DNA of 44,843 nt from Microcaldota archaeon (GTDB lineage Archaea; Micrarchaeota; Micrarchaeia; Norongarragalinales; Norongarragalinaceae), in the NCBI GenBank assembly GCA_016212375.1, contig JACRGH010000016.1, forward strand, positions 1-44,843, given 5' to 3'. The first letter of the stretch is position 1. Each line of letters opens with the position of its first letter. The notes beneath the pieces are model-generated. The model saw only the letters and a program-made list of their open reading frames with translations. It searched no databases and had not been told where the DNA came from. Both the position numbers and the translations under genes were made by a program. Positions 1-20,721 of the stretch are shown piece by piece.

Positions 1-29
1 ACTACGCCGGCGGTTAGGGCTGGCCTTTG

Positions 30-51
30 CCGCAGGCCGTTAAGCCTGCGG
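30..51. other. Perfect 8-bp hairpin at left edge, possible end of a structured RNA
   Basis: CCGCAGGC (30-37) and GCCTGCGG (44-51) form a perfect stem around the loop CGTTAA. The surrounding first 130 bases are GC-rich, unlike the T-rich DNA that follows, and hold no convincing ORF. This could be the 3' part of a structured RNA cut by the window edge. I could not match it to tRNA, 5S, SRP or RNase P RNA. Confidence 0.3.
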
Positions 52-163
52 GAAGTATTGATGGAGCGATCGTGAGCGGATGAGCAATTTTCAAGAAGGC
101 AGTGGCCTGCCCCCACCAACACGGCAGGGGACCACTACCTACTATCTATATTCTATTTGGGTG

Positions 164-176
164 TTGTATATATTGT
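164..176 (+). promoter_or_regulatory. TATA-like box of the small membrane-protein gene
   Basis: A TGTATATAT stretch lies about 40 nt before the ATG at 210. That would place transcription start about 15 nt upstream of the start codon. It is the only clear TATA-like element in this interval. Confidence 0.35.
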
Positions 177-209
177 TTTGTGGCGCATATTTTGTTGGTT
201 GGGAGCCTC

Positions 210-395
210 ATGGAACCAAATGAAAATAACCAAACGCCGATCCTGTACGGAGCCTTTGTGCTCGTACTTCTGGCGGCGTTTGTACTTGCTCCCAGCCCCT
301 CTCTTGTCATTGCGGCCGCCGCCGTTTTGCTTATGTTCTATCAAACCAATGCGGCTCCTTCGGACGCGATTTTCCAACACGAGGCCCACTTCTGA
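210..395 (+). CDS. Small two-helix membrane protein
   Basis: A 61-residue protein starting MEPNENNQ. A polar N-terminus is followed by two closely spaced hydrophobic segments (about residues 11-27 and 29-41) separated by a Pro-Ser turn, then a polar tail ending in EAHF. This is the architecture of a small integral membrane hairpin. The in-frame extension upstream to 102 is less likely, because the ATG at 210 is the first start after a TATA-like box. No family was recognised. Its composition is less extreme than the T-rich DNA downstream, which supports it being a real gene. Function unknown. Confidence 0.45.
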   Translation: MEPNENNQTPILYGAFVLVLLAAFVLAPSPSLVIAAAAVLLMFYQTNAAPSDAIFQHEAHF

Positions 396-1877
396 TTTTC
401 GCTTTGAATCATATGCCTGCCTTTGGCTCGGGGGTGTTCCTTTCGGGGCGGGGTCGCTCAAACCGACTGTTCGGGTTGGCGGTATACCGTTGATACTAGG
501 GTTTGGTGTCCGGTTCAGCCGCATTTGAACTGAATTGGCTTGTTGTAGGCAGGTTTTCCTCAATGGCTACGTTTATCGGTTTGGCGCACTGGGCTATTCC
601 GCGGCCTCGTTTGGCTGTGTCCTGCTTTTGGCGCAAATCGTTGGTTTGGTAGGCGGGCTTTTCATTCAGGCGTTCGGCTCTTTGTGCCGTTTTGGCCATG
701 TGGCTTGTTTTTCACTTATTTTATGCCATTTGGTCCTTTTTGGCGTATTACTTGTACGCATTGGCTCATTTATTGAATCGGTAGGGGGGGTTCCTTGGTT
801 TGCTCTGGGTTGTCGTTCCGTTGGTGCCGCGGCGCGTTCGAATTAGGCAGATTTTTAGGGTTTTGGCCCATTTTGATTCGCATTTGTCGTGTGGTCTTTT
901 GCGTTTTCATTGCTCAACTGTCCCTGCTTGCTTGGGTTTCCGTCGTTTTGGCGTAGTTTACTGGGCGTGGTCGAATGTTCCCCTCTCATTTGGTCCTTTT
1001 ACTCGTCTTGACTCATTTGAAACATGGTACTTTTGGGTGTTTACGTCAATCTCGGGCCGTTTTTTCACGTTTTCCGTGTTTTTTGTGGTGCTAACCGTAT
1101 TCTTTTTTCATTTTTTTAATACTCGCCAAACTGCTTTAAACTGGCTTTTATGCCGGTTTTATGGGCATTTTTTGCTCTTGGGTTGTTTTTTTGAATCGGT
1201 TTTTACGTTTGCTCTCAATGGGCTGGGCTTATTTTGAGCCCTTTTTTCCGTTTTTTCAACTATGAGCACAAAATATGGGCAGTTTTTTTCAATTTTTCAT
1301 TTTTTTAGGGCCAAAAATAGGGGAAGAAAATACAGATTGGCGGAATTATAGTCGATTGGCCAATACCAAAATGGTGTGCATTCGATTTTTATGTTCCCTC
1401 ATTTTGGTGTGTTTTCATTTTCATTTTTACCTCTATGTGCCTCTAGTTGTGGTGCTTTTTTTTCGCTTGCCTTCTGCGAGAGTGGATCGTTTATGCTTGT
1501 TTTTTACTGTGGCATTGGCTCGAAATATTGCGTGGTTTGTTCTATTATCCCATTATGTGATATTAATATTAGTGGAATGTTTCTCAAGTGATGTAACGAA
1601 AATAGTGGAATTGGCACTTTGAAGCCATTTTGGTGGCATTATTCGTTTTGGCATGGGTGAGTGGCTCTAAAAATCTACTCAATACCTTTATGATGAAACG
1701 TAGTGTTTTGTCGGAGTGGGGTGTCGACGAATTCCTGGTCGTGTTGCTGTTCTCATTATGGTATTTGGATGTTGGTGGCCATCATTATGTTGTTCGTCAC
1801 GTTTTGATGCTTTTCGGAAGTCTGGTCGGGTTTCGCGTGCCTCTTGGTGAGTGGTGAGGTACTTTGTGCCATTAATG
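396..1877. other. T-rich region without a convincing gene
   Basis: About 1.5 kb in which T greatly exceeds A on the plus strand. Open frames here are rich in Phe, Leu, Val and Cys as expected by chance, start poorly and show no domain. A 14-nt word, CATTTGGTCCTTTT, occurs at 727-740 and again at 987-1000. The 13-mer TGGTCCTTTTACT (991-1003) recurs at 15034-15046 in the periodic repeat upstream of the AAA+ ATPase. The last open frame on the plus strand (1630-1857) ends just before the terminator at 1878; I do not call it. Confidence 0.5.
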
Positions 1878-1911
1878 GCCTCCAAATGGGTGTTTGGAGG
1901 CGTTTTATTTT
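1878..1911 (+). terminator. Intrinsic-terminator-like hairpin with T tract
   Basis: GCCTCCAAA (1878-1886), loop TGGGTG, and TTTGGAGGC (1893-1901) form a perfect 9-bp stem followed directly by GTTTTATTTT. It would end plus-strand transcripts, yet no recognisable plus-strand gene precedes it. Confidence 0.55.
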
Positions 1912-1952
1912 GCCGTGTGGCACTCGGTCGTGGCTAAGTGGGTGCGAAAACC

Positions 1953-2240
1953 TTATTTTTGTTCAACTTTAGTTGAACTAATTGGTTGTTTTTCGGCCTT
2001 AAATTGGCGGTGGTGTAAGGAAAACCATTTTACTGAGTCGGAGGATTCCTCGGGACTGTCTTGAATTTGGCCTTTAACTGAGTTTGGCGTGCCTTTGCGT
2101 GGGTTTTTCTCATCCAGGAGGAAATGGATTGTCTTGTCCAAACTGAACCGCGATCCATGGCGTGCTTGCAATTTTCCGGATAGTTTTTGGAGTTGCTCAT
2201 AGGTATTTTCCTGTACGCGAATCAGTTTTGTCATAGTCAT
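1953..2240 (-). CDS. Ribbon-helix-helix DNA-binding protein
   Basis: A 95-residue protein. The N-terminal 45 residues look like a ribbon-helix-helix fold: a short basic beta strand (TKLIRV), helix A (about residues 12-24), then a second helix that follows FSLDKTIHFLLDE. The C-terminal half is polar, Ser/Gln/Lys-rich and probably disordered. The ATG at 2240 lies about 25 nt after a strong TATA box, so the message is likely leaderless; ATG 2234 is the alternative. It is the only convincing gene in about 3 kb of T-rich DNA, and phased repeats lie upstream. CopG/VapB-like proteins of this type regulate toxin pairs or plasmid copy number or partition. No toxin neighbour is visible. An 18-nt palindrome (1961-1978) lies inside its last codons. 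Confidence 0.7.
   Translation of the reverse strand: MTMTKLIRVQENTYEQLQKLSGKLQARHGSRFSLDKTIHFLLDEKNPRKGTPNSVKGQIQDSPEESSDSVKWFSLHHRQFKAEKQPISSTKVEQK
1961..1978. repeat. Perfect palindrome near the 3' end of the RHH gene
   Basis: GTTCAAC-TTTA-GTTGAAC is a perfect inverted repeat with 7-bp arms. It may be part of a terminator or a protein-binding site; there is no T tract long enough to decide. Confidence 0.4.
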
Positions 2241-2261
2241 CAAGTTTGTTTACTTTGTTTC

Positions 2262-2272
2262 AGTATTTAAAT
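2262..2272 (-). promoter_or_regulatory. TATA box of the RHH gene
   Basis: Read on the minus strand this is CATTTAAATAC, a near-ideal archaeal TATA box. Its centre is about 27 nt before the ATG at 2240, the spacing expected for a leaderless transcript. Confidence 0.6.
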
Positions 2273-2360
2273 GTTTTTACCTCGTAAAACGTGTTAGATT
2301 TGCCAATTTTTGCATTGTTAATTGTGTTTATTATTTAGACTAATTTAGATTTTTGATTCT

Positions 2361-2412
2361 GTTTACTTAGAATACCGCTTCTATTTACTTTGTAGATAAA
2401 CTTAGTTTACTT
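2361..2412. repeat. Three (G/A)TTTACTT repeats at exact 22-nt spacing
   Basis: Copies begin at 2361 (GTTTACTT), 2383 (ATTTACTT) and 2405 (GTTTACTT), so the period is exactly 22 nt, two helical turns. A fourth copy is at 2248-2255, between the RHH start codon and its TATA box. They lie upstream of the RHH gene and would sit on one face of the helix, as iterons or operators do. Confidence 0.5.
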
Positions 2413-3560
2413 ATTGGTTTTGATTTTTGGTTATTTTATTCACCAATTTTTGAAATTTTTCAATTTTTCTGCCTATTTTTGGTCGTTTTTTGGGTTTTTT
2501 AGCATTCTGGTGCCATTTCAGCCCGTTGGTACTGATGCGCCGCCCTCGTAGGGCGATAAAATCTGGTTTTTTGTCTGAAAACGGCCCATTTTGACCCTTT
2601 TTGGGCCATTTTCCGTGTTTTTGGATTGGTTTTGATTGTTTTTGGCCCTATATTGGCCCTAGTACGCCTTAAACCAATAAAAAATCAGTATTTTTGGTCA
2701 AAATCTGCCTAGTATTGCCTTTTTTGGGTGATTGGGGCCGTTTCGACGGCTTTTCGGCTCTTTAGACGGGGGCTATTTTTGGCTTTTTCGAGGCAAATTC
2801 ATGTAGACCTGCCTAAAAATGCCTTTTTTTGCGCATATAGTTCCCCTTTACCTTATTTTTTCCCATGTTTTGGGTTTTTCTGCCCATTTCGGCGCTTTTT
2901 TGTTGGTTTCCGCTTGTTTTTCGTTATTTTTTGCCCTTTTTCCATGTATTTCCGTTCATTTTCCGTGTTTTTTCATTTTTTCTGCCCATGTTGGTCTAGT
3001 TGGGGGTGTTTTTGCTCGTTTTTTGGGCACATTTGGTGTTTTTGCACCATATGTTAGGCCCTTTTCATCTTTTTCTGCCCATTTTGGCGTTTTGAGGTCG
3101 ATTTTAGGCGGATTGTTTGGGTTTTCAGTCGGATTGGAGGCGGTGTGGGCCGTTTCAACCGATTTTCTGCCCATCCCACTCTCTTGGCCTCTCTTTTGAA
3201 TGGTTTTTATGCCCTGGTCTTGAAAATCTGGCCCATTTTGGACTTTTCTGCCTATGTTTTGAACCGCCGTTGTGGTCGTATTCCGACCCATTTTGCCGTC
3301 CTTTATAAAGGCTATTTAAAGCTCCGCGGGTCCTGGTTTGACGTCAATTGGCGTGAATGTGGCTTTAATGGCTTTTTTTGGCATGTTTCGGGTTTGGTTG
3401 TTTGTTTTTGGGGTGTGCGACAATCCAAGCCGCCCAAGTTTTGGCGGTATACCGTTGACCTGATTCGTTAGGAGTTGTCCCGCCTTGGTTTTTGTGTGGG
3501 TTATTTTGCCCGATTTATTTTCCGTTCCGTTTATTTTACCTCGTGGATACAACGTCCTGT
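2413..3560. other. T-rich region with degenerate TTTTCTGCCCAT repeats, no gene
   Basis: About 1.1 kb without a convincing gene. The plus strand is very T-rich and A-poor. A degenerate word close to TTTTCTGCCCATTTTGG recurs, for example near 2876, 2978, 3071, 3163 and 3225. ORFs here are Phe- and Cys-rich by composition only. The Lhr gene begins at its right edge. Confidence 0.5.
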
Positions 3561-6423: not shown

Positions 6424-6777
6424 TTACTGTTTTTGCATCAAAATGGCTTTGTAGCCCACTTTTTGGCCGTTTTCAATCCAGTCCGCGATCCCGGGCTTCA
6501 ATCTTTTGACGTGATAGAAAAACTCACTGGCTGCCATGTGGTCCGCTATCAACCTTTCAAGGCGTTTGTCAGGAATCTGGCTTCCGTTGATGGCGTCCGG
6601 GACATCGCGGTTGTCCCATTTTTCGTGTAGGAACGGTACGCATACTTCGACGCCGATTTGGACCTTGCGCTGGATGAATCCCAGGATTGTGCGAGTTCTC
6701 ATTATTTTCCGGATTTCGATGCCTTGCACCTGTTGGGATTTCAGACGGGTTTGGATGCTTATGGCCGCTTCGTTCAC
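6424..6777 (-). CDS. Uncharacterised 117-aa protein, last gene of Ubl/E2 operon
   Basis: A GTG-initiated 117-residue protein, five nucleotides after the stop of the 41-aa gene, so very likely in the same transcript as the Ubl and E2. It is basic in its first third (IEIRKIMRTRTILGFIQRK) and mixed after that, with a single Cys in VEVCVPF and a C-terminal stretch ending in ILMQKQ. No family was recognised. Its place in the operon makes it a candidate accessory factor or substrate of the ubiquitin-like system; that is inference from context only. Confidence 0.6.
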   Translation of the reverse strand: MNEAAISIQTRLKSQQVQGIEIRKIMRTRTILGFIQRKVQIGVEVCVPFLHEKWDNRDVPDAINGSQIPDKRLERLIADHMAASEFFYHVKRLKPGIADWIENGQKVGYKAILMQKQ

Positions 6778-6782
6778 GGGGT

Positions 6783-6908
6783 TTACTCTGTTTTTTTTAT
6801 TTTAGGCGGAAACGTCTCGAGAAATTCGTACTCGTCTTCCTGGGGCGGCACGCGCTCTTCCAATTCCGTTTGGGTCACTTTGACGATGGTGGGTTTTTGG
6901 TTGGCCAT
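6783..6908 (-). CDS. 41-aa acidic small protein in Ubl/E2 operon
   Basis: A 41-codon ORF from ATG (6906-6908) to TAA (6783-6785). It begins MANQKPTIVKVTQTELEERV and ends in a Lys-rich KIKKTE. It starts five nucleotides after the stop of the preceding 129-aa gene and stops five nucleotides before the GTG of the next, filling the gap exactly. That spacing is the main evidence that it is coded. The central part is acidic (PPQEDEYEFLETFPP). A hydrophobic patch (TIVKV) beside acidic residues recalls ubiquitin-interaction motifs, but this is speculative. No family was recognised. Confidence 0.5.
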   Translation of the reverse strand: MANQKPTIVKVTQTELEERVPPQEDEYEFLETFPPKIKKTE

Positions 6909-6913
6909 TTTAT

Positions 6914-7303
6914 TCACGAGATGCCTTTGGATCGGGCGAATGCCATGAACGCGTGCGTTTCGTTTCTGCCCATGGTTTGTACTGCGCCGATGGTGACTTG
7001 TTTTTTTCCTTTGGTACTTTCAAAACTCCATGCCGGTTCCGCGTCCGGTGCATGGGTCCGCACGGCGTTGGTGATGAGGTCCATCCAGAATTTCATCGCT
7101 TTTTTTTCGCGCATTTCCGGCTTTTTTTCAGCAAACCACCCGACGCCCAATTCAAGGACGGTGGCGGGGTTTGGTTCTATTTTCAAATGCACGTGGACGT
7201 CGTGATTTCCGTGCATGTCTTTTTGGTTGGCAAACACGTGGCTGTTGGGGTAGTCGATTTTGAATCGGGAATCCTTTTCCAGCGCTTCCAACAACTCCCT
7301 CAT
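6914..7303 (-). CDS. Uncharacterised 129-aa protein coupled to E2
   Basis: A 129-residue protein whose ATG (7301-7303) overlaps the E2 stop in ATGA, indicating translational coupling. It begins MRELLEALEK and has an alternating central stretch rich in His (HGNHDVHVHLKIEP, residues 31-44), then a helical segment (EKKPEMREKKAMKFWMDLI) and a final beta-like stretch. The mix of helix and strands suggests a small globular domain. I do not recognise the family. Tight coupling to the E2 argues for a direct partner role in the conjugation system, by inference. Confidence 0.65.
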   Translation of the reverse strand: MRELLEALEKDSRFKIDYPNSHVFANQKDMHGNHDVHVHLKIEPNPATVLELGVGWFAEKKPEMREKKAMKFWMDLITNAVRTHAPDAEPAWSFESTKGKKQVTIGAVQTMGRNETHAFMAFARSKGIS

Positions 7304-7764
7304 ATTTTCACCACCCTCGGACCCTTTGGCACGTGTTGGTCCATTTCCGGATGCTCTAGGTAATAGCGCGCCGCATCCTCGTTCAGCGGGCTTTGGGGGT
7401 TCGGATTTTTCAAAAGTTGGTACAGGGCGTCTATCACGCTGACCAGATTCTGCCCTGCGCTCCATTGGTTGATGAGTTGGATGCAGACCGCGCCGTCTTC
7501 GGCCCGGATGTTCGGATGGAAGATGGGTGAAATCCAGTACGCCATCAGGCCGCCGGGGTAGGGGTAGTCGCGGTTCAGCTCGATTCGTACGCTGTGTTGC
7601 GTTCGTGTGTATAGTTGGCCCCCTTGCATGAATACGCCTGGCGCGTTGAGGCTGACGGTGTACTCCGTGAGGTCCTTGGACGCCTCGAAGTGGATGCCGG
7701 CGGCTTGCAGCTCCGTGTTCTCGCTTTGGAGTCGGCGTTGGAAAATGGCGTCGGGAAGGCGCAT
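7300..7764 (-). CDS. Ubiquitin-conjugating enzyme E2 (UBC fold)
   Basis: A 154-residue E2. The order is an N-terminal helix, a beta meander with TEYTVSLNAPGVF (33-45), the Tyr/Pro-rich turn YPYPGG (68-72), then HPN (83-85) and the catalytic cysteine at 94 in GAVCIQLI, with Trp101 after it and a crossover helix NLVSVIDALYQLLKNPNP. The HPN-x8-Cys arrangement and the Trp are diagnostic of the UBC family, and the length matches a minimal E2 core. It would receive Ubl from the E1 as a thioester and hand it to lysines with help of the RING protein. It starts three nucleotides after the 149-aa gene and overlaps the next gene by 4 nt. Confidence 0.93.
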   Translation of the reverse strand: MRLPDAIFQRRLQSENTELQAAGIHFEASKDLTEYTVSLNAPGVFMQGGQLYTRTQHSVRIELNRDYPYPGGLMAYWISPIFHPNIRAEDGAVCIQLINQWSAGQNLVSVIDALYQLLKNPNPQSPLNEDAARYYLEHPEMDQHVPKGPRVVKI

Positions 7765-7767
7765 GGC

Positions 7768-8217
7768 TCAATCCTCTGTTTGTTCGAACCAAATTCCCCG
7801 TTGACGTAATCCTTTGTGTTGACGTGGCAATGCGTCAGGGGGTTGGATGGTTATTTTTAATCCCAACCGGGTTGAAAGGAATCCGGAATCTGAACGCGTG
7901 CTAAACCCCTGTGTCTTTTTTGCGGTTGCGCCGGTTATTCGGACTACGTATCCTTTTCCAAGCCGTTGTTTGATTCTCTGTTCGACGTGCTGGAAAAACG
8001 GAGTCAGCGTTTGCACTTGCTTTTCGACGCCATGGGTTTGGCCCACGAGGACCGCGTTCATCAATGAATCCCGGATTCTTTTGGGTAACGAGCCGTTCCA
8101 TTTCGCGTAGATGTCCAGAAATGCTTGTTGGGGGTGGGTATCTTCGTAGTGGAGGCTGGATATGCTGAATTGATTCAGTGGCGCCCATTTGCGCAGGCGG
8201 TCCAGCGCATGAATCAT
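7768..8217 (-). CDS. Uncharacterised 149-aa protein between Ubl and E2
   Basis: A 149-residue basic protein, ATG at 8217, only three nucleotides after the Ubl stop and three before the E2 ATG, so certainly co-transcribed. The N-terminal half reads as helices (LDRLRKWAPL; LPKRIRDSLMNAVLVGQ); the middle has KQRLGKGYVVRITG, and the C-terminal part has beta-like LGLKITIQPP before a polar tail. No Cys is present, so it is not an E1, E2 or RING protein. I do not recognise the family. Its place between modifier and conjugating enzyme makes it the best candidate for a new core component. Confidence 0.7.
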   Translation of the reverse strand: MIHALDRLRKWAPLNQFSISSLHYEDTHPQQAFLDIYAKWNGSLPKRIRDSLMNAVLVGQTHGVEKQVQTLTPFFQHVEQRIKQRLGKGYVVRITGATAKKTQGFSTRSDSGFLSTRLGLKITIQPPDALPRQHKGLRQRGIWFEQTED

Positions 8218-8220
8218 AGG

Positions 8221-8463
8221 TCAGCCGCCAGTGGGATCCGGCATCAGCAACAAGTGAGCATTTTCCTGGATGCCCGCCTCGCCTATCGTGACATCCGGGC
8301 CCAAAATGCGGTGGTCGGACGTCGCCAAAACGAAGCGGTCCTTCAGTTTCAAGCTGTCCGATAGGACGTCTAATACGGAGGAAACGGTGAATCCAGGCTC
8401 TACGGCCATGACGATTTCCTTTCCGGACGTCGTGTGGGTGATGGTGATGTTGAATTCGGACAT
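8221..8463 (-). CDS. Ubiquitin-like modifier with C-terminal Gly-Gly
   Basis: An 80-residue beta-grasp protein. It opens with a beta hairpin (FNITITHTTSGKEIVMAV, 4-21), has a central helix (TVSSVLDVLSDSLKL, 26-40), then strands RFVLAT and RILG, the loop PDVTIGEAGI and the last strand HLLLMP before DPTGG. The gene stops immediately after Gly79-Gly80, so the conjugation-ready tail is made directly and needs no proteolytic maturation. Only three lysines are present (15, 39, 41), which limits possible chains. It is first in an operon with the E2 and has its own TATA box about 30 nt upstream. Confidence 0.93.
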   Translation of the reverse strand: MSEFNITITHTTSGKEIVMAVEPGFTVSSVLDVLSDSLKLKDRFVLATSDHRILGPDVTIGEAGIQENAHLLLMPDPTGG

Positions 8464-8489
8464 ATGGACCGCTAATCGTTTTCGCGCGT

Positions 8490-8500
8490 GCGGTTAAATT
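8490..8500 (-). promoter_or_regulatory. TATA box of the Ubl operon
   Basis: On the minus strand this reads AATTTAACCGC, about 31 nt before the Ubl ATG at 8463, consistent with a leaderless or near-leaderless operon message. Confidence 0.45.
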
Positions 8501-8554
8501 CGTTTGGGTCAATTGGCCGGTGAGCGATTGTTTGTTTTTTTGTCTCACGAAACG

Positions 8555-8564
8555 CTCTTTAATC
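8555..8564 (+). promoter_or_regulatory. TATA box of the divergent Pro-rich/JAMM/RING transcript
   Basis: CTCTTTAATC lies about 28 nt before the ATG at 8588. Together with the box at 8490 it makes a compact divergent promoter that would co-express both halves of the locus. Confidence 0.45.
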
Positions 8565-8587
8565 TTGGCCGCCTGTTTTTAGCCATC

Positions 8588-9526
8588 ATGGAAAAGCCCA
8601 AAATCGTCTCGGTGACTGACGCATTGGAATCGCCGGATGACGAGCACGATGTGCCCCAGCTTCCAGGCTCAGTTCCATTAAACCCCCTTTCTGTAATGCC
8701 CGCTGTTCCATCTCAGTTCGATGCCTTCCCGATTAAATCCGCGCAAGTTGAGGAACACCCGGAGGAAGTGCCACCGGAGCGTTTGACGTCCGTTGTGGCG
8801 TCTGTTGCCTCTATTCCGCCGATTCCTGTTCCGCAAGTGTCGGCGCCCCAATCCGTTGGTGTTGCGCCGTCCGTTTCTGAATCGGTCGTTGACGTGCCTC
8901 AAAATAAACCGGCGCCCGCTGGTGTGCCGCCTTGGGTCGAGCGCAATCCGCCGGAGCCGACGGTTGCCGAGGTGGCCGGTCCAATCGGGCCTGTTCCAAG
9001 CTATCCGGGCGTGGGTCGTCCCCGTATCAATTCCATTTCACAAAGCACCGTGTCCTTGGAGCCGGCAAAGCCGTTGACGGCCCCTATCCGTCCAACTGCT
9101 CCTGCTCCAATTTTCCACTCGGCCGTGCCCTCCGTTTCAACCCGTTCCATGGTGCCTTCCGCTCCTGCTCGTCCCTCCGCCCCTGCCTTTTTGGTTCCGG
9201 CGTCGTCCGGCAAGCTCTACGAGCGGCCCGAATTGGATGCCGACCATTTTGCCGAGGACATGGCGTCGCACAAACCGGCCTCCGCGCCTTCCTCCGCTTT
9301 GTCGTCCGGCGTGGCATCTCCTTTGTCCGCCGCGCCTGCAAGCAAGGTCGTGCAGGAATACCGCCAGACGGCCGTTGCGGACCTTCGCCCCCCTACTGCA
9401 CCGGCCCGTCCGCGCACGCCTGAGGACGAGCGGGCCCATGCGAAATCTTTAGCCGCCCAAATCCACCAGGATAACTTAAAAGCCGGATTCTTGGGCCAAA
9501 TCAAACGTATGTTCGGCGTGCGTTGA
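8588..9526 (+). CDS. Pro/Ala/Ser-rich disordered protein in ubiquitin-like locus
   Basis: A 312-residue protein starting MEKPKIVSVTDALESPDDEHD. Almost the whole chain is Pro, Ala, Ser and Val with no visible globular domain; short motifs such as PARPSAPAF and PTAPARPRTP recur. The last 40 residues are different: a predicted helix with DERAHAKSLAAQIHQDNLKAGFL followed by a basic amphipathic end (GQIKRMFGVR). The first residues place an IVSV patch before an acidic run, the pattern of a SUMO/ubiquitin-interacting motif. It is the first gene of the plus-strand unit, 24 nt before the JAMM gene. A scaffold or adaptor role is inferred from context only. Confidence 0.65.
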   Translation: MEKPKIVSVTDALESPDDEHDVPQLPGSVPLNPLSVMPAVPSQFDAFPIKSAQVEEHPEEVPPERLTSVVASVASIPPIPVPQVSAPQSVGVAPSVSESVVDVPQNKPAPAGVPPWVERNPPEPTVAEVAGPIGPVPSYPGVGRPRINSISQSTVSLEPAKPLTAPIRPTAPAPIFHSAVPSVSTRSMVPSAPARPSAPAFLVPASSGKLYERPELDADHFAEDMASHKPASAPSSALSSGVASPLSAAPASKVVQEYRQTAVADLRPPTAPARPRTPEDERAHAKSLAAQIHQDNLKAGFLGQIKRMFGVR

Positions 9527-9550
9527 ATTAGAAACAAGGGGCGTTTTTTT

Positions 9551-9994
9551 GTGTTTGATGTTTACCTGTCCGCCGATGCCATGGCCGCCGCAACCGAGCA
9601 TTTCCGCTCCGCATCGTGGGAGGGCAAGGAAGCCATGGGCCTTTTGGTGGGTCGCGTCTTTGTGTTTGAAGGCCGCCCCTATGCGGTGGTGGACGAATAC
9701 GTGACTGCCGCAAATGATGCCACGGCGGTGCACGTCCGCTTTGCGCCCGAAGCTTTTTCCGAGCTTTCCAAAAAACTAATGGGTGGCCGCCGCGTGGTCG
9801 GCTGGGCGCATTCGCATCCGGACTACGGTTGCTTTTTGTCCACGACTGATGTGGCCACGCAGGAGACGTATTTCCAGGAGCCGTACCACGTGGCGTTGGT
9901 GGTGGATCCGGTGCGCAATGAAAAGCAATGCTTCAAAGCCAACAAGGGCCAATATGCGCCAGTATCCTATGCGGTCATCCGGAAGAAATCATGA
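9551..9994 (+). CDS. JAMM-domain isopeptidase (Rpn11-like deubiquitinase)
   Basis: A 147-residue single-domain metalloprotease. All JAMM elements are present: Glu27 in [10 protein letters not shown], and [14 protein letters not shown] giving His87, His89, Ser97 and Asp100 in the exact H-x-H-x7-S-x2-D spacing for zinc binding. This is the family of Rpn11, Csn5 and archaeal JAMM1 enzymes that cut the bond after a modifier's C-terminal glycine. Since the Ubl here has no tail to trim, its likely job is deconjugation. It starts with GTG at 9551, 24 nt after the Pro-rich gene, and precedes the RING gene by about 100 nt. Confidence 0.92.
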
Positions 9995-10097
9995 TGATGT
10001 GTTCTTGACCGCCGCGGCTGCTGTGAACGAAAAAATGAAATTAAAATTCCCGTGAAAACAAACGAATCGAACAAAAAACCCAAAACCGTGACGAACA

Positions 10098-10922
10098 ATG
10101 CCTGATGAAACCAAAGATGCCAAATCCCAAAAGACGCTTGCGCCCGCGAAGCGTGGCCGAAAACCGGGCCCCGTTTCCAAGAAATTCAAGGCCACTAAGT
10201 TTGACAAGGATTTGGTCAAATTAATCCAGTCCGGCGTGGTGCGTTTTACCGATTGGTGCCAAGCTCTTGGCGTCGACGAGACGCAGGCCCGTGCTCGCGT
10301 CAATGTTTTGGTGGAAAAAGGATACCTCGCATCGGATGCCCAGTTGGTTGGCGTGTACCGCCTTGGAATCGAGGGCTACAACAAGTACGGCTCCATGAAG
10401 AAACCGGCGCTCGTGGCCCCCTTGGTTCCCGCACGACTCGAATTTTCAGCGCCATCCGCGTTTGAGCGTGCGCCTACGAAACCGGTGGCTTCCGAGCGCA
10501 AGGAAAAACCAATCGCGTCGCCGTCTTCTTTTTCTGACGCCCCGGTTCTGTTGGCTCGAACGCCGCCCGCTTCAGTCGGCCCCCGCCGTTTCGACGATTC
10601 CGGCGCGCTGACCGAGGAAATCCCCAAAGCCCGAAACGAGCTGGATTTGGCCGAGATGATCCAACGCGGTTCTCCCTCCAATACGCGCAAGGTGGATTCG
10701 GAGCGGTGCGAACTGTGCCGAGGGGACTTCAAGTATTCCATCAAGGAGCCGAAGTTGGCCAAATTCGCCCACTGCACCTGCGGCTCGGCGTACCATGAGG
10801 ATTGCTACGATTCGCTGGTCGACAGCGGCAACGGCTGCGCCCGGTGCGGGCGGAAACTGACCTCAGTTTTGGACCAATCCAGCCAGGACAGTCTCAAAGA
10901 CATCAAGGATGCGTTTGAGTAA
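10098..10922 (+). CDS. Winged-helix/RING (C4HC3) protein, candidate E3 ligase
   Basis: A 274-residue protein with two domains. Residues 30-100 look like a winged helix: KFDKDLVKLIQSGVVRFTDW, then a recognition-type helix DETQARARVNVLVEKGYL and a wing with VYRLGIEGYNKYG. A Pro/Ser-rich linker follows (105-195). Residues 204-250 hold eight metal ligands: C204, C207, C226, C228, H233, C236, C247, C250. The C-x2-C...C-x-C-x4-H-x2-C...C-x2-C order is C4HC3, as in RING-CH or PHD fingers, rather than the plain C3HC4 RING. In a locus with Ubl, E1 and E2 it is best read as the E3. The winged helix may recruit DNA-bound or protein substrates. It overlaps the convergent gene at its 3' end by 20 nt. Confidence 0.85.
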   Translation: MPDETKDAKSQKTLAPAKRGRKPGPVSKKFKATKFDKDLVKLIQSGVVRFTDWCQALGVDETQARARVNVLVEKGYLASDAQLVGVYRLGIEGYNKYGSMKKPALVAPLVPARLEFSAPSAFERAPTKPVASERKEKPIASPSSFSDAPVLLARTPPASVGPRRFDDSGALTEEIPKARNELDLAEMIQRGSPSNTRKVDSERCELCRGDFKYSIKEPKLAKFAHCTCGSAYHEDCYDSLVDSGNGCARCGRKLTSVLDQSSQDSLKDIKDAFE

Positions 10923-11325
10923 CTTCCAGTCGTTCGAGAACTGGTTTGTTTTTTTCCTTGAATTCTTCAGGCAGGACGATTATCTTGTGTTGCCCTAACC
11001 ACTGCCTTGGTTGGACGTCGTGTTTTTCTTTCATTTTTTCCAGAAACCGGTTTCCCTTTGGCTTCAGATATCTATAGTCCAGCGTGTTTAGCCCAAGTGC
11101 GTGGGTGGCCTGAATTATCAATTCTTCCGCGTAGCTGCGTCCGTGTTGCTTGTAAAAACTCATTGTACTTGTTCGGCTGAGTGTGTTGATATCGTGTATG
11201 TGGCCGATTATCAGCGGGCCGGTATCTCCAATTGTGAAAACCTTAAGTGATGCCATCGGTTTTCCTTTTTCACGTATTGTAAATATGTGGAAATAACGTC
11301 CATGGTTTTCGTGTTCGACTTGCAT
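10903..11325 (-). CDS. GNAT-like protein downstream of E1
   Basis: A 140-residue protein, ATG at 11325, nine nucleotides after the E1 stop and therefore probably in its operon. The pattern is a beta sheet (HIFTIREKGKPMASLKVFTI; GPLIIGHIHDI), then a Gly-started helix (GRSYAEELIIQATHALGL), a strand (TLDYRYLKPKGN) and a helix (RFLEKMKEKH). This resembles the GNAT acetyltransferase core, with GRSYAEELI at the place of the acetyl-CoA loop, but the loop is not canonical (no Q/R-x-x-G-x-G/A). I call it GNAT-like with low confidence; it may be unrelated. Confidence 0.5.
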   Translation of the reverse strand: MQVEHENHGRYFHIFTIREKGKPMASLKVFTIGDTGPLIIGHIHDINTLSRTSTMSFYKQHGRSYAEELIIQATHALGLNTLDYRYLKPKGNRFLEKMKEKHDVQPRQWLGQHKIIVLPEEFKEKNKPVLERLEVTQTHP

Positions 11326-11334
11326 TTTGTCGCC

Positions 11335-12240
11335 TCATTTCATATCCGGATGCACCGGACAACCCTTCCGCTTCGCTACGACATAACCTTCCGTCTTCTG
11401 GCTTAAGCCGTCGTAGTGCAAATACTTCCCCGCCAAAATGTTCTGCCCAAAAACGTGCTTCAAAAACTCGTTGACCTGTATGGCGGCGACAATCGACGTC
11501 GTCGTGGCAATGGCCGGCGTCTTGGGATCCACCACGTCCAGCACCTCGCCGACGCAGCTGTAGCGTTGCCAAAGCAATTTGTAATCGGATTTGCTCATGC
11601 TGCATTCCAGGCATGCGGAAGGCGCGGAAACGACTTGTACTTTGCCCAAAAAGCCGGTAGTGCCGCCATCGAACAGCGGCGCTTTTCCATATGCGTGGGC
11701 GTTGACGTGCAGGCGTGCGCCGAGGTTGTCCAAGCAGCCGAAAACGGCTGTTGACTCGGAGAAAACGGTTTCTTCCAGTTGGTCCACGTTGCGGCGGTCG
11801 GCAATAACGTGGGTGTTGGGGTAATCGGTTTTGGCGCGTGCCGCGAGCGCGTCGGCCTTGAATCGGTTTTGTTTGGCATCTTCCGGCGTGAAAAAGACGC
11901 ACCGGTTCAGATTGGCCGCAACGACGGTGTCGAAGTCCACTACTCGGACCTTCCCGACCCCCAGTTGGAACAACAACTTGCACACTTCGTTGCCAAGCGC
12001 TCCGGCGCCGATGACCAACACGTTCTGCTTTTCCAGTGCCGTTTGGTCCCATTTCGGAATCCGCTTTTGGCGGTCGAAGCGGTCGGCGTCTACTGAGAGG
12101 ACGTGGGCGGTGTCCACTCCAAGCACGATTTCATTTTGGGCACTATCGTTTTTGGCCCCACCATGCATCGTTGCATCCGTCACGATTTTGGGCCCCTTTG
12201 GAAGCAGGCCTCCGTCCGTTACCGCTTTATTTTCATCCAT
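11335..12240 (-). CDS. E1-like ubiquitin-activating enzyme (ThiF/UBA family)
   Basis: A 301-residue adenylating enzyme. After about 50 polar residues comes the E1/ThiF core: RFDRQKRIPKW (54-64), the nucleotide loop GAGALG (78-83), then VDFDTVVAANLNR (101-113) with the conserved Asn and Arg, and CLDNLGARLHVN (169-180). Cysteines C210 and C213 in a CxxC pair, with C294 and His297 near the C-terminus, probably bind zinc. C229 in RYSCVGEV, just before the crossover stretch TPAIATTTSIVAA, is the best candidate for the catalytic cysteine. It would adenylate the Ubl C-terminus and pass it to the E2. The gene is convergent with the RING gene and divergent from dtdA 14 nt away. Confidence 0.9.
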   Translation of the reverse strand: MDENKAVTDGGLLPKGPKIVTDATMHGGAKNDSAQNEIVLGVDTAHVLSVDADRFDRQKRIPKWDQTALEKQNVLVIGAGALGNEVCKLLFQLGVGKVRVVDFDTVVAANLNRCVFFTPEDAKQNRFKADALAARAKTDYPNTHVIADRRNVDQLEETVFSESTAVFGCLDNLGARLHVNAHAYGKAPLFDGGTTGFLGKVQVVSAPSACLECSMSKSDYKLLWQRYSCVGEVLDVVDPKTPAIATTTSIVAAIQVNEFLKHVFGQNILAGKYLHYDGLSQKTEGYVVAKRKGCPVHPDMK

Positions 12241-12254
12241 CCACGCTTGAGTGT

Positions 12255-13067
12255 ATGGTCATCCTTTTTTACTCCACGCTTGACCCCGCGGCGGTCCATG
12301 CCGCGAACGCCTTGCGCGAGCTTCGGTCCAATGAAAAGACGCAATTGCGCGGTTTTGACGCGTGGCGCTTTGACGGCGCCGCATCCGGAATTGGGAAACC
12401 GGCGGCGTTTGATTTGGTGGAATTGCCTTTCCGTGCGCTTAATTTCCAAGACGCCGATATTTTCGGTGCGGATTTAGCCGTTTTTCTGTCGCGCCATGCC
12501 GGCGCATCCGGTCGGCCTTGCTTTACGTGCCATCTGACGGGCAATTTCGGAGAGCCGAAGGAAAACTTCGGCGGTTCGCCTCGAAACTTAAGCAAGGCGT
12601 CCGCGCATTGGCTCAAACGATTTTACTTGGCGTTGAAAGAAACGACCGGCCGCGTCTCACTTGAGGCCACACACCACGGGCCCACCCTTAATACGCCGAC
12701 GTTGTTCGTGGAAACCGGTTCGGACGAGTCCGAGTGGGCGAAACCGGAAAACGGTAAATTATTGGCCGAGTCCGTCTTGATGGCATTGGAGTCGCCCAAT
12801 CCTGGTGGCAAGGCGGCTTTAGGATTTGGTGGCGCCCATTATTGCTCCGCATTTGTGCACAAACTGCAAAAAGGTTGGGCCCTTTCGCACGTGGCGTCCA
12901 AGCATGCGGTGGCGTCTGTGACGAACGAAATGTTGCAACAAGCTGTGCAGAAAACGGTTGAGCCCATCGAATGCGTGTTTTTGGATGAGGGCGGGTTGAC
13001 GTCGGCCAAGCGCAAGGAACTCGAAGGTTGGTGCGGCGAGTTGGGGTTGGAATCCGCGCTTATCTAG
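12255..13067 (+). CDS. dtdA: D-aminoacyl-tRNA deacylase (archaeal DTD2/GEK1 type)
   Basis: A 270-residue protein of the archaeal and plant DTD2 family, which removes D-amino acids from tRNA. Family signatures visible are LEATHHGPT (near residue 140) with TLFVETGSDESEW after it, and the GFGGAHYCSAF stretch around residue 195 with conserved His and Tyr. The length agrees with the archaeal family. The ATG at 12255 (MVILFYSTLDPAA) is chosen because the family begins with this strand; the longer frame back to 12036 is the antisense of the E1. It overlaps the convergent methyltransferase by 4 nt. Confidence 0.9.
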   Translation: MVILFYSTLDPAAVHAANALRELRSNEKTQLRGFDAWRFDGAASGIGKPAAFDLVELPFRALNFQDADIFGADLAVFLSRHAGASGRPCFTCHLTGNFGEPKENFGGSPRNLSKASAHWLKRFYLALKETTGRVSLEATHHGPTLNTPTLFVETGSDESEWAKPENGKLLAESVLMALESPNPGGKAALGFGGAHYCSAFVHKLQKGWALSHVASKHAVASVTNEMLQQAVQKTVEPIECVFLDEGGLTSAKRKELEGWCGELGLESALI

Positions 13068-13783: not shown

Positions 13784-14902
13784 TCACCGGTATTGAGTCA
13801 ACGTTTTTTGCCCTAATATTCGGCTCTTTTCCGTGTACTCGCGCCACGGCCGCTTCAGCCGTTTTTTCAGCTCGGTAATGGCGTCCTTGAAATCGGTCGT
13901 CTTGAACGGTTGCATCTCAAATGAATGCCGCACGTTTTCCCGAACCTCCCAAACACCGACGGGCACTTGGTACTCCGGCGCCACTTCCCGGAACACGACG
14001 CAACGCGCCTGCTTTTTGAGCCGATAGAGGGCTTCCACCACGCCGTACCGTCCGGCGTAATAGCCTCCGCCTTCGGTCGCCGCGTACTTGGTCCGGCCCC
14101 AATTGGGTTCGTATTCGTGTTCCAAATTGATTGAGCCTTCAAAGGATTCGAACTGCTCGAACTCCCACGCGCCCGGCATCAGTAATACTTCGAAATGGTT
14201 GTACAGGTAGTTGTTGGAGTAAATGCGGTACTCGCCCACTTCGGCATTGTTGCGGACGTCCTGGAGCATTTGTTTGGCCAACATGTCGTCCGTTGCGGTG
14301 ATGCTCCATTTGGTGGGCACTAATTTGGGCTTTTCACCCAAAATTCCCGCGGACAGAAGTTTTTGGATGTAGTGGTAATCGAAGCGGCCCATCAGTTCGG
14401 GCAACGCTTCTGAAACTTTGAGCTTCTCATCCATCAGGGCGTCGATTTTCTTTGGAACGACTGGATTGTCCGTGGCCCGGAAGCGCTTCAGTTGGCCCGA
14501 CGGCCCAAGGGGCTGGACGTGCGTGGAAAAGGATAAGTCAAATCGGGGCGCTTGGAAAAACTCCGCTTCCACGTCCACCTGCTTTTCCGACGCGGCAATC
14601 CATAACGCTTCATCCGCCGCCCGCGATACGTTGCGCACGGTAAAGCCGCGCGCCAAGAAGGCCCGCTGACGAAGCAGTTCCGGATAGGCCAATCCATACA
14701 AATCGGCGGGTGCGTCCAGCACGTTGTCTTCAAGGGCCAGCATGGGTCCTGCGCGTACCGAGGGGTAACCGTACTCTCCGACAAAGACGTTCGGAGGTGA
14801 GGGCCCGAACGTGATGGCTTTGAGCTTCGGTCGGACGGCCGTTTCAAGCTCCGCCATCCACGTGCGACCTCGGATCCACTCATAGACGGATTGGCCTTTC
14901 AT
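13784..14902 (-). CDS. Nre-family DNA repair protein with C-terminal PIP-like motif
   Basis: A 372-residue protein of the archaeal Nre family (DUF650/DUF651), linked to DNA damage tolerance and PCNA. Recognisable parts are FGPSPPNVFVGEYGYPSVRAGPM near residues 32-54, cut here to FVGEYGYPSVRAGPM as the signature, and RFDYHYIQKLLSAGILG mid-protein. A conserved stretch GVVEALYRLKKQARCVVFREV follows towards the end. The C-terminus ends QKTLTQYR: Gln-x-x-Leu-x-x-Tyr fits a PCNA-interacting motif as seen in NreA. I see no N-terminal zinc-finger cysteines, which some members carry. It follows the methyltransferase promoter-side on the minus strand, with a 390-nt gene-free region upstream. Confidence 0.85.
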   Translation of the reverse strand: MKGQSVYEWIRGRTWMAELETAVRPKLKAITFGPSPPNVFVGEYGYPSVRAGPMLALEDNVLDAPADLYGLAYPELLRQRAFLARGFTVRNVSRAADEALWIAASEKQVDVEAEFFQAPRFDLSFSTHVQPLGPSGQLKRFRATDNPVVPKKIDALMDEKLKVSEALPELMGRFDYHYIQKLLSAGILGEKPKLVPTKWSITATDDMLAKQMLQDVRNNAEVGEYRIYSNNYLYNHFEVLLMPGAWEFEQFESFEGSINLEHEYEPNWGRTKYAATEGGGYYAGRYGVVEALYRLKKQARCVVFREVAPEYQVPVGVWEVRENVRHSFEMQPFKTTDFKDAITELKKRLKRPWREYTEKSRILGQKTLTQYR

Positions 14903-20052: not shown

Positions 20053-20084
20053 GTGCAAACACTCTATAATTAACGTGGTTGCAC
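20053..20084. promoter_or_regulatory. VapBC promoter with flanking inverted repeat
   Basis: GTGCAA (20053-20058) and TTGCAC (20079-20084) form an inverted repeat around the TATA box CTATAATTA (20064-20072); the right arm ends at the ATG. This is the expected layout for an operator bound by the RHH antitoxin to repress its own promoter. Confidence 0.55.
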
Positions 20085-20327
20085 ATGGCTAACGTTACGC
20101 TGACTCTACCGGATGATTTGAAGCAAAAGATGTCCAGCATGGACTACGTCAACTGGAGTGCAGTCATCCGCTCCATCATTGAAGCCAAAATCCGGGATTT
20201 TGAGACGGCAGAAAAACTCGTGTCCAAAAGCAAGTTTTCTGAAGCCGATTTGGCTGATTTGATGCGCCGCGTGGACGACGATTACCGCAAGGAAGGCAGA
20301 AGGTTGTTGGATGAAGCTGACCGTTGA
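20085..20327 (+). CDS. vapB: VapB-like RHH antitoxin
   Basis: An 80-residue antitoxin starting MANVTLTLPDDLKQKMSS. The first 45 residues are a ribbon-helix-helix (strand ANVTLTL, helix PDDLKQKM, helix WSAVIRSIIEAKI). The C-terminal part is acidic and helical (LADLMRRVDDDYRKEGRR), the type of segment that wraps around a PIN toxin. It overlaps vapC by 17 nt, so the two are translated together. An inverted repeat flanking the TATA box suggests autorepression. The in-frame codons before 20085 (MH) lie within the operator. Confidence 0.85.
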   Translation: MANVTLTLPDDLKQKMSSMDYVNWSAVIRSIIEAKIRDFETAEKLVSKSKFSEADLADLMRRVDDDYRKEGRRLLDEADR

Positions 20328-20721
20328 TGCCAACGTCCTGTTTGCCGCCCTCATCCGAAATGGTCTGTCCCGACGGCTTATCTTCCATCCGGGCCTGGAT
20401 TTGGACACGCCTTATTTTTTCCTTGAAGAACTGAAAAAGTACCGTGAGGAACTCGTTTCAAAATCGCGCATGTCTGAGGTTGAGTTTTTGCAGACATTCC
20501 ATTCCGTCCTTTGCCAGGTCGAGCCCATCGATAGTGCCGTCATCAAACCTTACATGCGTGCCGCGTCCACCCTTATCGAAGATTCGAAGGACTGGCCCTA
20601 TTTGGCGTGCGCCTTATTTTCCGGCTCGGATTTGTTGACGCAAGATCCCGGATTTCGATCACAAGCCCGAGTGAAGGTCCATTCGGTTGAGGAGTTGGCG
20701 CGGGAATTGGGTTTGATTTGA
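20311..20721 (+). CDS. vapC: VapC-like PIN-domain toxin
   Basis: A 136-residue PIN-domain protein, the likely ribonuclease toxin of the pair. Acidic metal-binding positions are visible: Asp6 in LTVDANVLFAAL, Glu in FFLEELKKY (near residue 39), and the C-terminal SKDWPYLACALFSGSDLLTQDPGF, where DW-x-x-LACAL and the TQD motif carry the remaining acidic residues. Such toxins cut tRNA or rRNA when the antitoxin is lost. It overlaps vapB by 17 nt. Its codon use is like its neighbours, so no sign of very recent transfer is seen. Confidence 0.85.
   Translation: MKLTVDANVLFAALIRNGLSRRLIFHPGLDLDTPYFFLEELKKYREELVSKSRMSEVEFLQTFHSVLCQVEPIDSAVIKPYMRAASTLIEDSKDWPYLACALFSGSDLLTQDPGFRSQARVKVHSVEELARELGLI

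Follow-up and report, generated by a model that had tools for sequence, protein, structure and literature searches.

Does the genome of a small Micrarchaeota archaeon encode a complete and working system for attaching and removing a ubiquitin-like modifier, and how would such a system differ from those already known in archaea? The question is raised by a 5.8-kb locus on contig JACRGH010000016.1 (assembly GCA_016212375.1), of which positions 1 to 44,843 were analysed (hereafter the window). The source metagenome-assembled genome (MAG) of the window has a size of 1.34 Mb and is 82% complete, and its closest named relatives are Candidatus Micrarchaeota MAGs. The host can be assigned to the order Norongarragalinales because LFW-144_1, which carries a related locus (L053), is the type MAG of Candidatus Norongarragalina meridionalis (PMC8561730). 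The original prediction, made from the letters of the DNA, had proposed a ubiquitin-like protein (Ubl), an E2, an E1, a RING-type protein and a JAMM protease, and all five open reading frames (ORFs) were found where it had placed them:

7300..7764, minus strand: E2 of the UBC family (Pfam UQ_con 2.1e-20), with the tail ...KGPRVVKI
8221..8463, minus strand: Ubl of 80 amino acids (aa), ending exactly in ...PDPTGG (AlphaFold2, Foldseek, alignments)
9551..9994, plus strand: JAMM/Rpn11-type protease of 147 aa (Pfam 1.5e-12) with E27, H87, H89, S97 and D100
10098..10922, plus strand: RING protein of 274 aa, a candidate E3, with winged helix, disordered linker, C4HC3 RING and C-terminal helix
10194..10400, plus strand: winged-helix domain of the RING protein (residues 33-101), with a predicted local distance difference test score (pLDDT) of 81-97 and Lrp/AsnC-type profile matches at 3e-4
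10707..10847, plus strand: RING domain of the same protein, zinc ligands C204 to C250, invariant in 18/18
11335..12240, minus strand: E1 of the ThiF/UBA family, 301 aa (Pfam ThiF 7.3e-43), with GAGALG and the zinc-binding CLEC...CPVH

The catalytic and metal-binding residues named in that prediction were all present and proved invariant in order-wide alignments. Conserved without exception were H83-P84-N85 and the active-site C94 of the E2 (21/21), the GxGALG, C159-x-E-C162, C178 and C243/H246 of the E1 (19/19; the catalytic cysteine C178 is numbered on the 250-aa core), the JAMM residues listed above (22/22) and G79-G80 of the Ubl. In profile searches the E2, JAMM and E1 scored above the Pfam cut-off, whereas the Ubl and the RING protein fell below it when scanned alone. 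The genes also travel together, as Ubl and E2 were found in the same 26 of the 29 Norongarragalinales genomes and nowhere else in a 295-genome sample of the phylum, and the gene order Nre-DTD-E1-RING-JAMM-Ubl-E2 (Nre, archaeal DNA-repair protein; DTD, D-aminoacyl-tRNA deacylase) was seen again with the same orientations in several families of the order. The co-occurrence in 26 genomes and the repeated synteny rule out a chimeric contig, contamination or chance. In genomes G012 and G023 the cascade genes are present, yet dispersed. Sequence, structure and synteny give good support to the reading as a complete archaeal locus for conjugation and deconjugation, and from these comparisons we consider it highly probable that the locus encodes a functional and reversible ubiquitin-like modification cascade, which would have been inherited as a fixed locus by this one order.

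The same fixation bears on a different role. Sets of Ubl, E1, E2 and JAMM function in bacterial defence, and the locus could be read as an anti-phage system resembling the bacterial Bil or CBASS E1-E2 systems. However, it occupies a constant chromosomal place by Nre and the D-aminoacyl-tRNA deacylase throughout the order, and PADLOC returned only generic ThiF and JAB similarity (for the E1 a partial ThiF core) with no match to E2, Ubl or RING, so that a defence function is highly improbable.

When the Ubl was scanned alone, Rad60-SLD (0.0085) and ubiquitin (0.027) were both below the Pfam cut-off, and the SUMO-like Rad60-SLD was the sole Pfam model matching all 23 Ubls. The structure prediction that had been proposed as a check yielded a beta-grasp (ubiquitin fold) with a mean pLDDT of 84, and the top Foldseek matches of this model were ubiquitin, SUMO and Caldiarchaeum ubiquitin (6fno), at template modelling scores of about 0.8-0.87. 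Most Ubl homologs already end in the mature di-glycine terminus and a few carry short C-terminal extensions.

By sequence profile the best relatives of the E2 in the PDB were UBE2H and UBE2A, and those of the E1 were UBA1, UBA3, UBA6 and UBA2, ahead of MoeB/ThiF. The E1 start codon (ATG at 12240) is backed by a sister species. A ubiquitin-fold domain (UFD) was not recognisable on the E1, and in every homolog examined the chain stops no more than a few residues from the CPVH zinc pair. The E1 of Caldiarchaeum has been described with a C-terminal ubiquitin-fold (UBL/UFD) domain (PMC5654768); since the Norongarragalinales E1 is without one, recruitment of the E2 must differ.

A short E1 of ThiF/MoeB-like size that has no UFD, and beside which no second full ThiF match was found in several genomes of the order, would also suit a system of the SAMP type, in which the E1 and the Ubl would work primarily in tRNA thiolation or in sulfur transfer for cofactors, with conjugation taking second place. 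The haloarchaeal SAMP/UbaA/HvJAMM1 system indeed shares a Ubl, a ThiF-type E1 and a JAMM with the locus, and SAMP conjugation requires neither E2 nor RING (PMC11354881). In Norongarragalinales, by contrast, a dedicated HPN-type E2 with its catalytic cysteine accompanies the Ubl in every Ubl-positive genome, the window's own genome has a second ThiF, and the family scores are low (67.8 of 450 bits for UbaA and 30.1 of 130 bits for the desampylase), the JAMM being Rpn11-like. Sulfur transfer as the principal function is very unlikely.

The closest PDB relatives of the JAMM by profile were Rpn11 and next CsRpn11 and CSN5. Because most Ubls already end at Gly-Gly, the protease is, judged from these sequences, probably mainly a deconjugase.

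Whether the cascade includes an E3 depends on the RING protein. Its eight ligands (C204, C207, C226, C228, H233, C236, C247 and C250) are spaced C-x2-C-x18-C-x-C-x4-H-x2-C-x10-C-x2-C and are invariant, as is L206, the hydrophobic residue preceding the second RING cysteine. The small RING proteins beside Ubl genes in Asgard archaea have the ligand pattern C-x2-C...C-x2-C-x4-H-x2-H...C-x2-C. The winged helix was confidently modelled by AlphaFold2, while the linker was disordered and the RING region reached a mean pLDDT of about 60-80. Foldseek searches with the model retrieved nearly exclusively winged-helix proteins, plus the RING of RNF38. The Pfam zf-RING_2 match (0.066) was below the cut-off when the protein was scanned alone; sequence matches at E about 0.02 were to the RING E3s RCHY1 and AMFR, and hhalign linked the protein to the Asgard small RING proteins (srfp) with a probability of 89 and an E-value of 2e-6. 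The original prediction had expected a RING fold, which is borne out in part by the ligands, AlphaFold2, Foldseek and hhalign and not by the Pfam score.

These results could also describe a zinc-finger regulator with a winged helix, leaving a cascade without an E3. In favour of such a regulator, the winged helix is the best-defined domain, the Pfam RING matches are below cut-off, and membrane-anchored winged-helix relatives without a RING exist in other Micrarchaeota. Against it stand the invariance of the zinc ligands and of L206, the similarity to Asgard small RING proteins, RCHY1 and AMFR, and the confinement of full-length homologs to Norongarragalinales, where they mostly adjoin the Ubl genes. 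A regulator is the unlikely choice of the two. From the alignments we regard the RING domain as related to the Asgard small RING proteins, and action of the protein as an E3 is plausible on the basis of its zinc-ligand pattern, weak profile matches and a model of moderate confidence.

The RING-protein profile matched 77 genomes of Micrarchaeota; homologs of the full protein outside the order were considered and rejected, since the nine loci read there matched in the winged helix only. These loci (L127-L135) encode proteins that are anchored by a C-terminal membrane helix, have no RING and share with the RING protein a related winged helix.

The genes are arranged in three transcription units that are kept across the order. 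A tight minus-strand unit, with gaps of 3 bp or overlaps, contains the Ubl, a 149-aa ORF, the E2 and a 129-aa ORF. Divergent from it, a plus-strand unit contains a disordered ORF (8588-9526), the JAMM (9551-9994) and the RING protein (10098-10922). The E1 (11335-12240) and a 140-aa ORF lie on the minus strand and are convergent with the JAMM-RING unit. The other members of these units and the conserved neighbours are:

6914..7303, minus strand: 129-aa protein, its start codon overlapping the stop codon of the E2; no Pfam family
7768..8217, minus strand: 149-aa protein separated by 3 bp from the Ubl on one side and from the E2 on the other; no Pfam family
8588..9526, plus strand: disordered protein of about 312 aa, Pro/Ala-rich, starting MEKPKIVSVTD, upstream of and codirectional with the JAMM
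10903..11325, minus strand: 140-aa protein directly downstream of the E1, poorly conserved; no Pfam family
12255..13067, plus strand: D-aminoacyl-tRNA deacylase (Pfam PF04414 5.6e-54), conserved neighbour by synteny
13784..14902, minus strand: archaeal Nre DNA-repair protein (Pfam Nre_N 9e-65, Nre_C 9e-31), conserved neighbour by synteny

The three small ORFs of 129, 149 and 140 aa gave nothing above cut-off in Pfam, NCBIfam or PADLOC, and a homolog of the 149-aa protein was found in one genome of the same genus only (L021, 31%). In the order, Nre and the deacylase have long been kept next to the E1 gene, and an Lhr-type helicase often lies beyond the E2, on the far side of the cluster.

A useful reference for this layout is the operon of Caldiarchaeum subterraneum (Ub, E1, E2, srfp, Rpn11), which has been reconstituted in vitro (PMC5654768). 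Both loci provide the same five functions, the Ubl fold matches that of CsUb (6fno), and the RINGs of both have an extra cysteine in the region of the third ligand. The compact, codirectional Ub-E1-E2-srfp arrangement was not found at the Norongarragalinales locus. There the E1 has only a minimal core (about 250 aa), the RING sits inside a winged-helix protein and is not a small stand-alone protein, most Ubls need no processing, and a disordered sixth protein and three transcription units are added. The original prediction had stressed an unusual layout and extra genes; the layout is fixed across the order, but a divergent JAMM is not unique to it, as the Rpn11-class JAMM of Caldiarchaeum is likewise transcribed away from its operon (PMC5654768), and the conserved disordered gene had been overlooked.

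The protein encoded by this gene has no Pfam match and ends, in the window, with a basic amphipathic stretch (GFLGQIKRMFGVR). In most loci of the order an equivalent ORF fills the gap between Ubl and JAMM on the JAMM strand; the homologs are Pro/Glu/Lys-rich and very variable in length, and share three recurring stretches, namely an N-terminal M..KP[KR]IVSV, a middle ...A.RDI.P and a basic amphipathic C-terminus. From this conservation the protein is apparently a disordered sixth component of the locus. In place of the short disordered gene, the JAMM-Ubl gap of genome G012 (L136:6089-10429) contains a predicted ORF of 1446 aa that looks coiled-coil-like.

The disordered protein also carries a short motif, P[KR][IV][IV], that recurs elsewhere in the locus:

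7309..7320, minus strand: C-terminal motif of the E2, P149-R-V-V152, of the form P[KR][IV][IV]
8597..8608, plus strand: PKIV motif of the disordered protein, strict P[KR][IV][IV]
12181..12192, minus strand: PKIV motif in the genus-specific N-terminal extension of the E1 (MDENK...KGPKIVTDA)

The motif lies within the last 8 residues of 21/21 E2s of the order, where 0.47 would be expected from shuffles. The disordered proteins contain 27 strict motifs in 17 homologs; as these ORFs had been selected for one motif near the start, the fair count is that of the second and later motifs, of which 10 were observed against 0.48 expected. In the E1 of the sister species (MEENK...RARIVTDA) the sequence ARIVTDA stands at the position of the window's PKIVTDA. 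The strict motif was also found in Thermoplasmatota, in 24/52 E2 tails (0.64 expected) and in 13/47 N-terminal regions of the JAMM (0.45 expected). Since the motif was defined post hoc and the sequences are related, all of these counts show conservation and are not independent trials.

SUMO-interacting motifs (SIMs) occupy the hydrophobic groove of SUMO between beta2 and alpha1, next to basic residues, and similar grooves exist in UFM1 and ATG8-family modifiers (PMC12687455). The E2 tails and the disordered protein present the short branched-hydrophobic run that is a feature of the SIM class, and their charges are paired with those of the Ubl. In the order an acidic beta2-alpha1 segment on the Ubl (mean net charge -3.0) goes with a basic E2 tail (+2.6), with corresponding values of -6.4 and +1.3 in Thermoplasmatota. 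In the Lokiarchaeota/Sigynarchaeum set the signs are inverted, the groove segment being basic (+1.5) and the E2 tail acidic (-7.8), ending in DDDILIID or alike. Such an inversion is expected if E2 tail and Ubl are partners. Asgard E2s with acidic SIM-like tails (e.g. DEDDDILIID) were read at L064, L065, L071 and L073, and the Lokiarchaeal loci pair such tails with Ubls having a basic beta2 segment. The contig of L064 is labelled Bathyarchaeota, its phylum sample largely coincides with Sigynarchaeum (Asgard), and it is probably mislabelled or has since been reclassified.

The motif might equally be aimed at another protein, for example the winged helix of the RING protein or the JAMM, and scaffold the enzymes. 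Counted on the locus proteins of the order, it is absent from Ubl, RING, E1 core, JAMM, DTD and Nre, and its presence on enzymes and adaptor and not on RING, Ubl or the order's JAMM is compatible with this. SUMO-interacting motifs usually have acidic flanks, so basic flanks as found here are unusual for them. Thermoplasmatota, on the other hand, retain the motif with no RING detected nearby, and the acidic Lokiarchaeal tails (DDDILIID) opposite a basic groove segment are as expected for a Ubl partner. We give a non-Ubl partner an appreciable chance, if one short of even. That the motif is a SIM-like tag with the Ubl as its partner is, from the sequence patterns, a tentative assignment that comes close to an even chance.

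E2-bearing systems are widespread in archaea. The original prediction considered complete sets to be known in few archaea, which is outdated, as E2 genes were found in 64/293 Thermoplasmatota genomes (the phylum sample of the Methanomassiliicoccales MAG L068) and in 169/228 Asgard genomes sampled. Many Thermoplasmatota loci are compact E1-Ubl-E2-JAMM operons, which are widespread in Methanomassiliicoccales and other Thermoplasmatota (L066-L120) and whose Ubl tails read PDPEGG; at L067 and L069 the ORFs that contain Ubl and JAMM are unusually long (356-377 and 629-884 aa). These operons resemble the Norongarragalinales locus in a sister E1, a PDP[TE]GG Ubl tail and the same E2-tail motif, there also on the JAMM N-terminus. 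They differ in being codirectional, a separate disordered protein was not identified, and a Cys/His pattern search for a RING beside them gave only one match, in an unrelated long protein at L108.

A phylogeny against Caldiarchaeum and Asgard homologs had been suggested, of which the Asgard part was carried out. The E1 tree unites the order in a single clade (Shimodaira-Hasegawa-like approximate likelihood ratio test support 94) that is sister to the E1s of the Thermoplasmatota operons (87), with two Lokiarchaeal E1s next outward and the larger Asgard E1s separate. The E2 tree is similar and weaker, and four Asgard E2s on a long branch fall inside the order. As both trees come from short searches with a single partial eukaryotic row and without Caldiarchaeum, and some supports are modest, they show neighbourhood and not the direction of transfer. 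A recent acquisition from eukaryotes was considered and rejected, as the order was not placed with the eukaryotic row, which is one partial sequence, with supports partly modest.

Asgard ubiquitin operons (E1 with a C-terminal extension, E2, Ubl, small RING) share all core functions, and their RINGs are linked to that of the order by hhalign, but their E1s have 330-430 aa, their E2 tails are without the motif, and their E1 and E2 take separate positions in the trees. With the eukaryotic SUMO system (SUMO, UBC9, SIM) the locus has in common the Rad60-SLD match and a motif resembling the hydrophobic SIM core; here, however, the motif is basic-flanked and on the E2 tail, its binding being predicted, and the protease is a JAMM and not SENP. 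We propose, as a possibility somewhat below even odds, that Norongarragalinales, Thermoplasmatota and one Asgard set form an unrecognised Ubl branch, in which a SIM-like tag on the E2 (and variously on E1, JAMM or adaptor) would bind the cognate Ubl non-covalently, the charges would co-evolve up to inversion, and the E1 would be UFD-less at least in Norongarragalinales.

The modification cascade favoured here would operate as follows. The E1 would adenylate the Ubl, which is mature as encoded, at its exposed Gly-Gly and form a thioester on Cys178, and the Ubl would be handed to Cys94 of the HPN-type E2, as in the respective families. The RING domain may dock the E2 and direct transfer to lysines, with the winged helix selecting the partner or place. 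Its conserved catalytic set suggests that the Rpn11-type JAMM would strip the tag and mature the few Ubls with C-terminal extensions. Like a SUMO-interacting motif, the P-[KR]-[IV]-[IV] motif may adopt a beta-strand conformation and occupy the acidic groove between beta2 and alpha1 of the Ubl; on the E2 tail, the disordered protein and the N-terminus of the E1 of this genus it would concentrate modifier, E2, E1 and adaptor. By speculation, the missing UFD could be made up for by a motif that keeps the Ubl on E1 and E2 alike. Because a 20S proteasome was found in every genome of the order (29/29), proteasomal degradation is a possible fate of tagged substrates.

Several points weigh against a cascade of this kind. 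Neither E2 nor Ubl was found in three of the 29 genomes, whose completeness is, however, only 61-79%. An E1 without a UFD leaves E2 recruitment unexplained. In the RING protein the canonical tryptophan is absent, the C4HC3 ligands are spaced C-x-C-x4-H, and confidence in this part of the model is only moderate. The motif was chosen once the sequences had been inspected, these sequences are related to one another, and the charge pattern is based on three lineages.

Two other regions of the window drew attention. Positions 1-3490 are gene-poor, mostly 34-50% GC against 53% for the window, and strongly enriched in T on the plus strand, where the AT skew reaches -0.6; they contain numerous imperfect T-rich repeats and one 96-aa ORF at 1953-2243, and gave no Rfam match. 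Two short ORFs of 82 and 136 aa, adjacent to each other at 20079-20721, look like a putative VapBC-type toxin-antitoxin pair.

An archaeal ubiquitin-like cascade as such is of a known kind. No literature linking Norongarragalina with ubiquitin was found, the accessible parts of the literature pairing Micrarchaeota with ubiquitin describe no such system, and a 2025 Micrarchaeota paper does not mention one (the only textual match was 'ubiquitously'); supplementary clusters I-III of a 2017 survey may list Micrarchaeota or Thermoplasmata. Relative to the literature found, it is new that the cascade is fixed in a DPANN order, that its RING belongs to a winged-helix protein, that a disordered partner accompanies it and that a motif is shared, while part of the distribution may have been listed earlier in the 2017 supplement.

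The locus would make a complete eukaryote-like modifier cascade a stable, order-wide trait of DPANN archaea with genomes of roughly 0.7-1.4 Mb, so that ubiquitin-like signalling would not be confined to the large-genome relatives of eukaryotes. The differences from known systems (an E1 without UFD, a winged-helix RING protein and a disordered partner) are instructive in themselves, and the small set of components and a Ubl without need of processing make the system well suited to reconstitution. The shared tail motif offers a cheap and decisive handle on non-covalent, SUMO-like recognition of a modifier outside eukaryotes; if the proposed binding is true, SIM-type recognition of a ubiquitin-like modifier exists in archaea as well.

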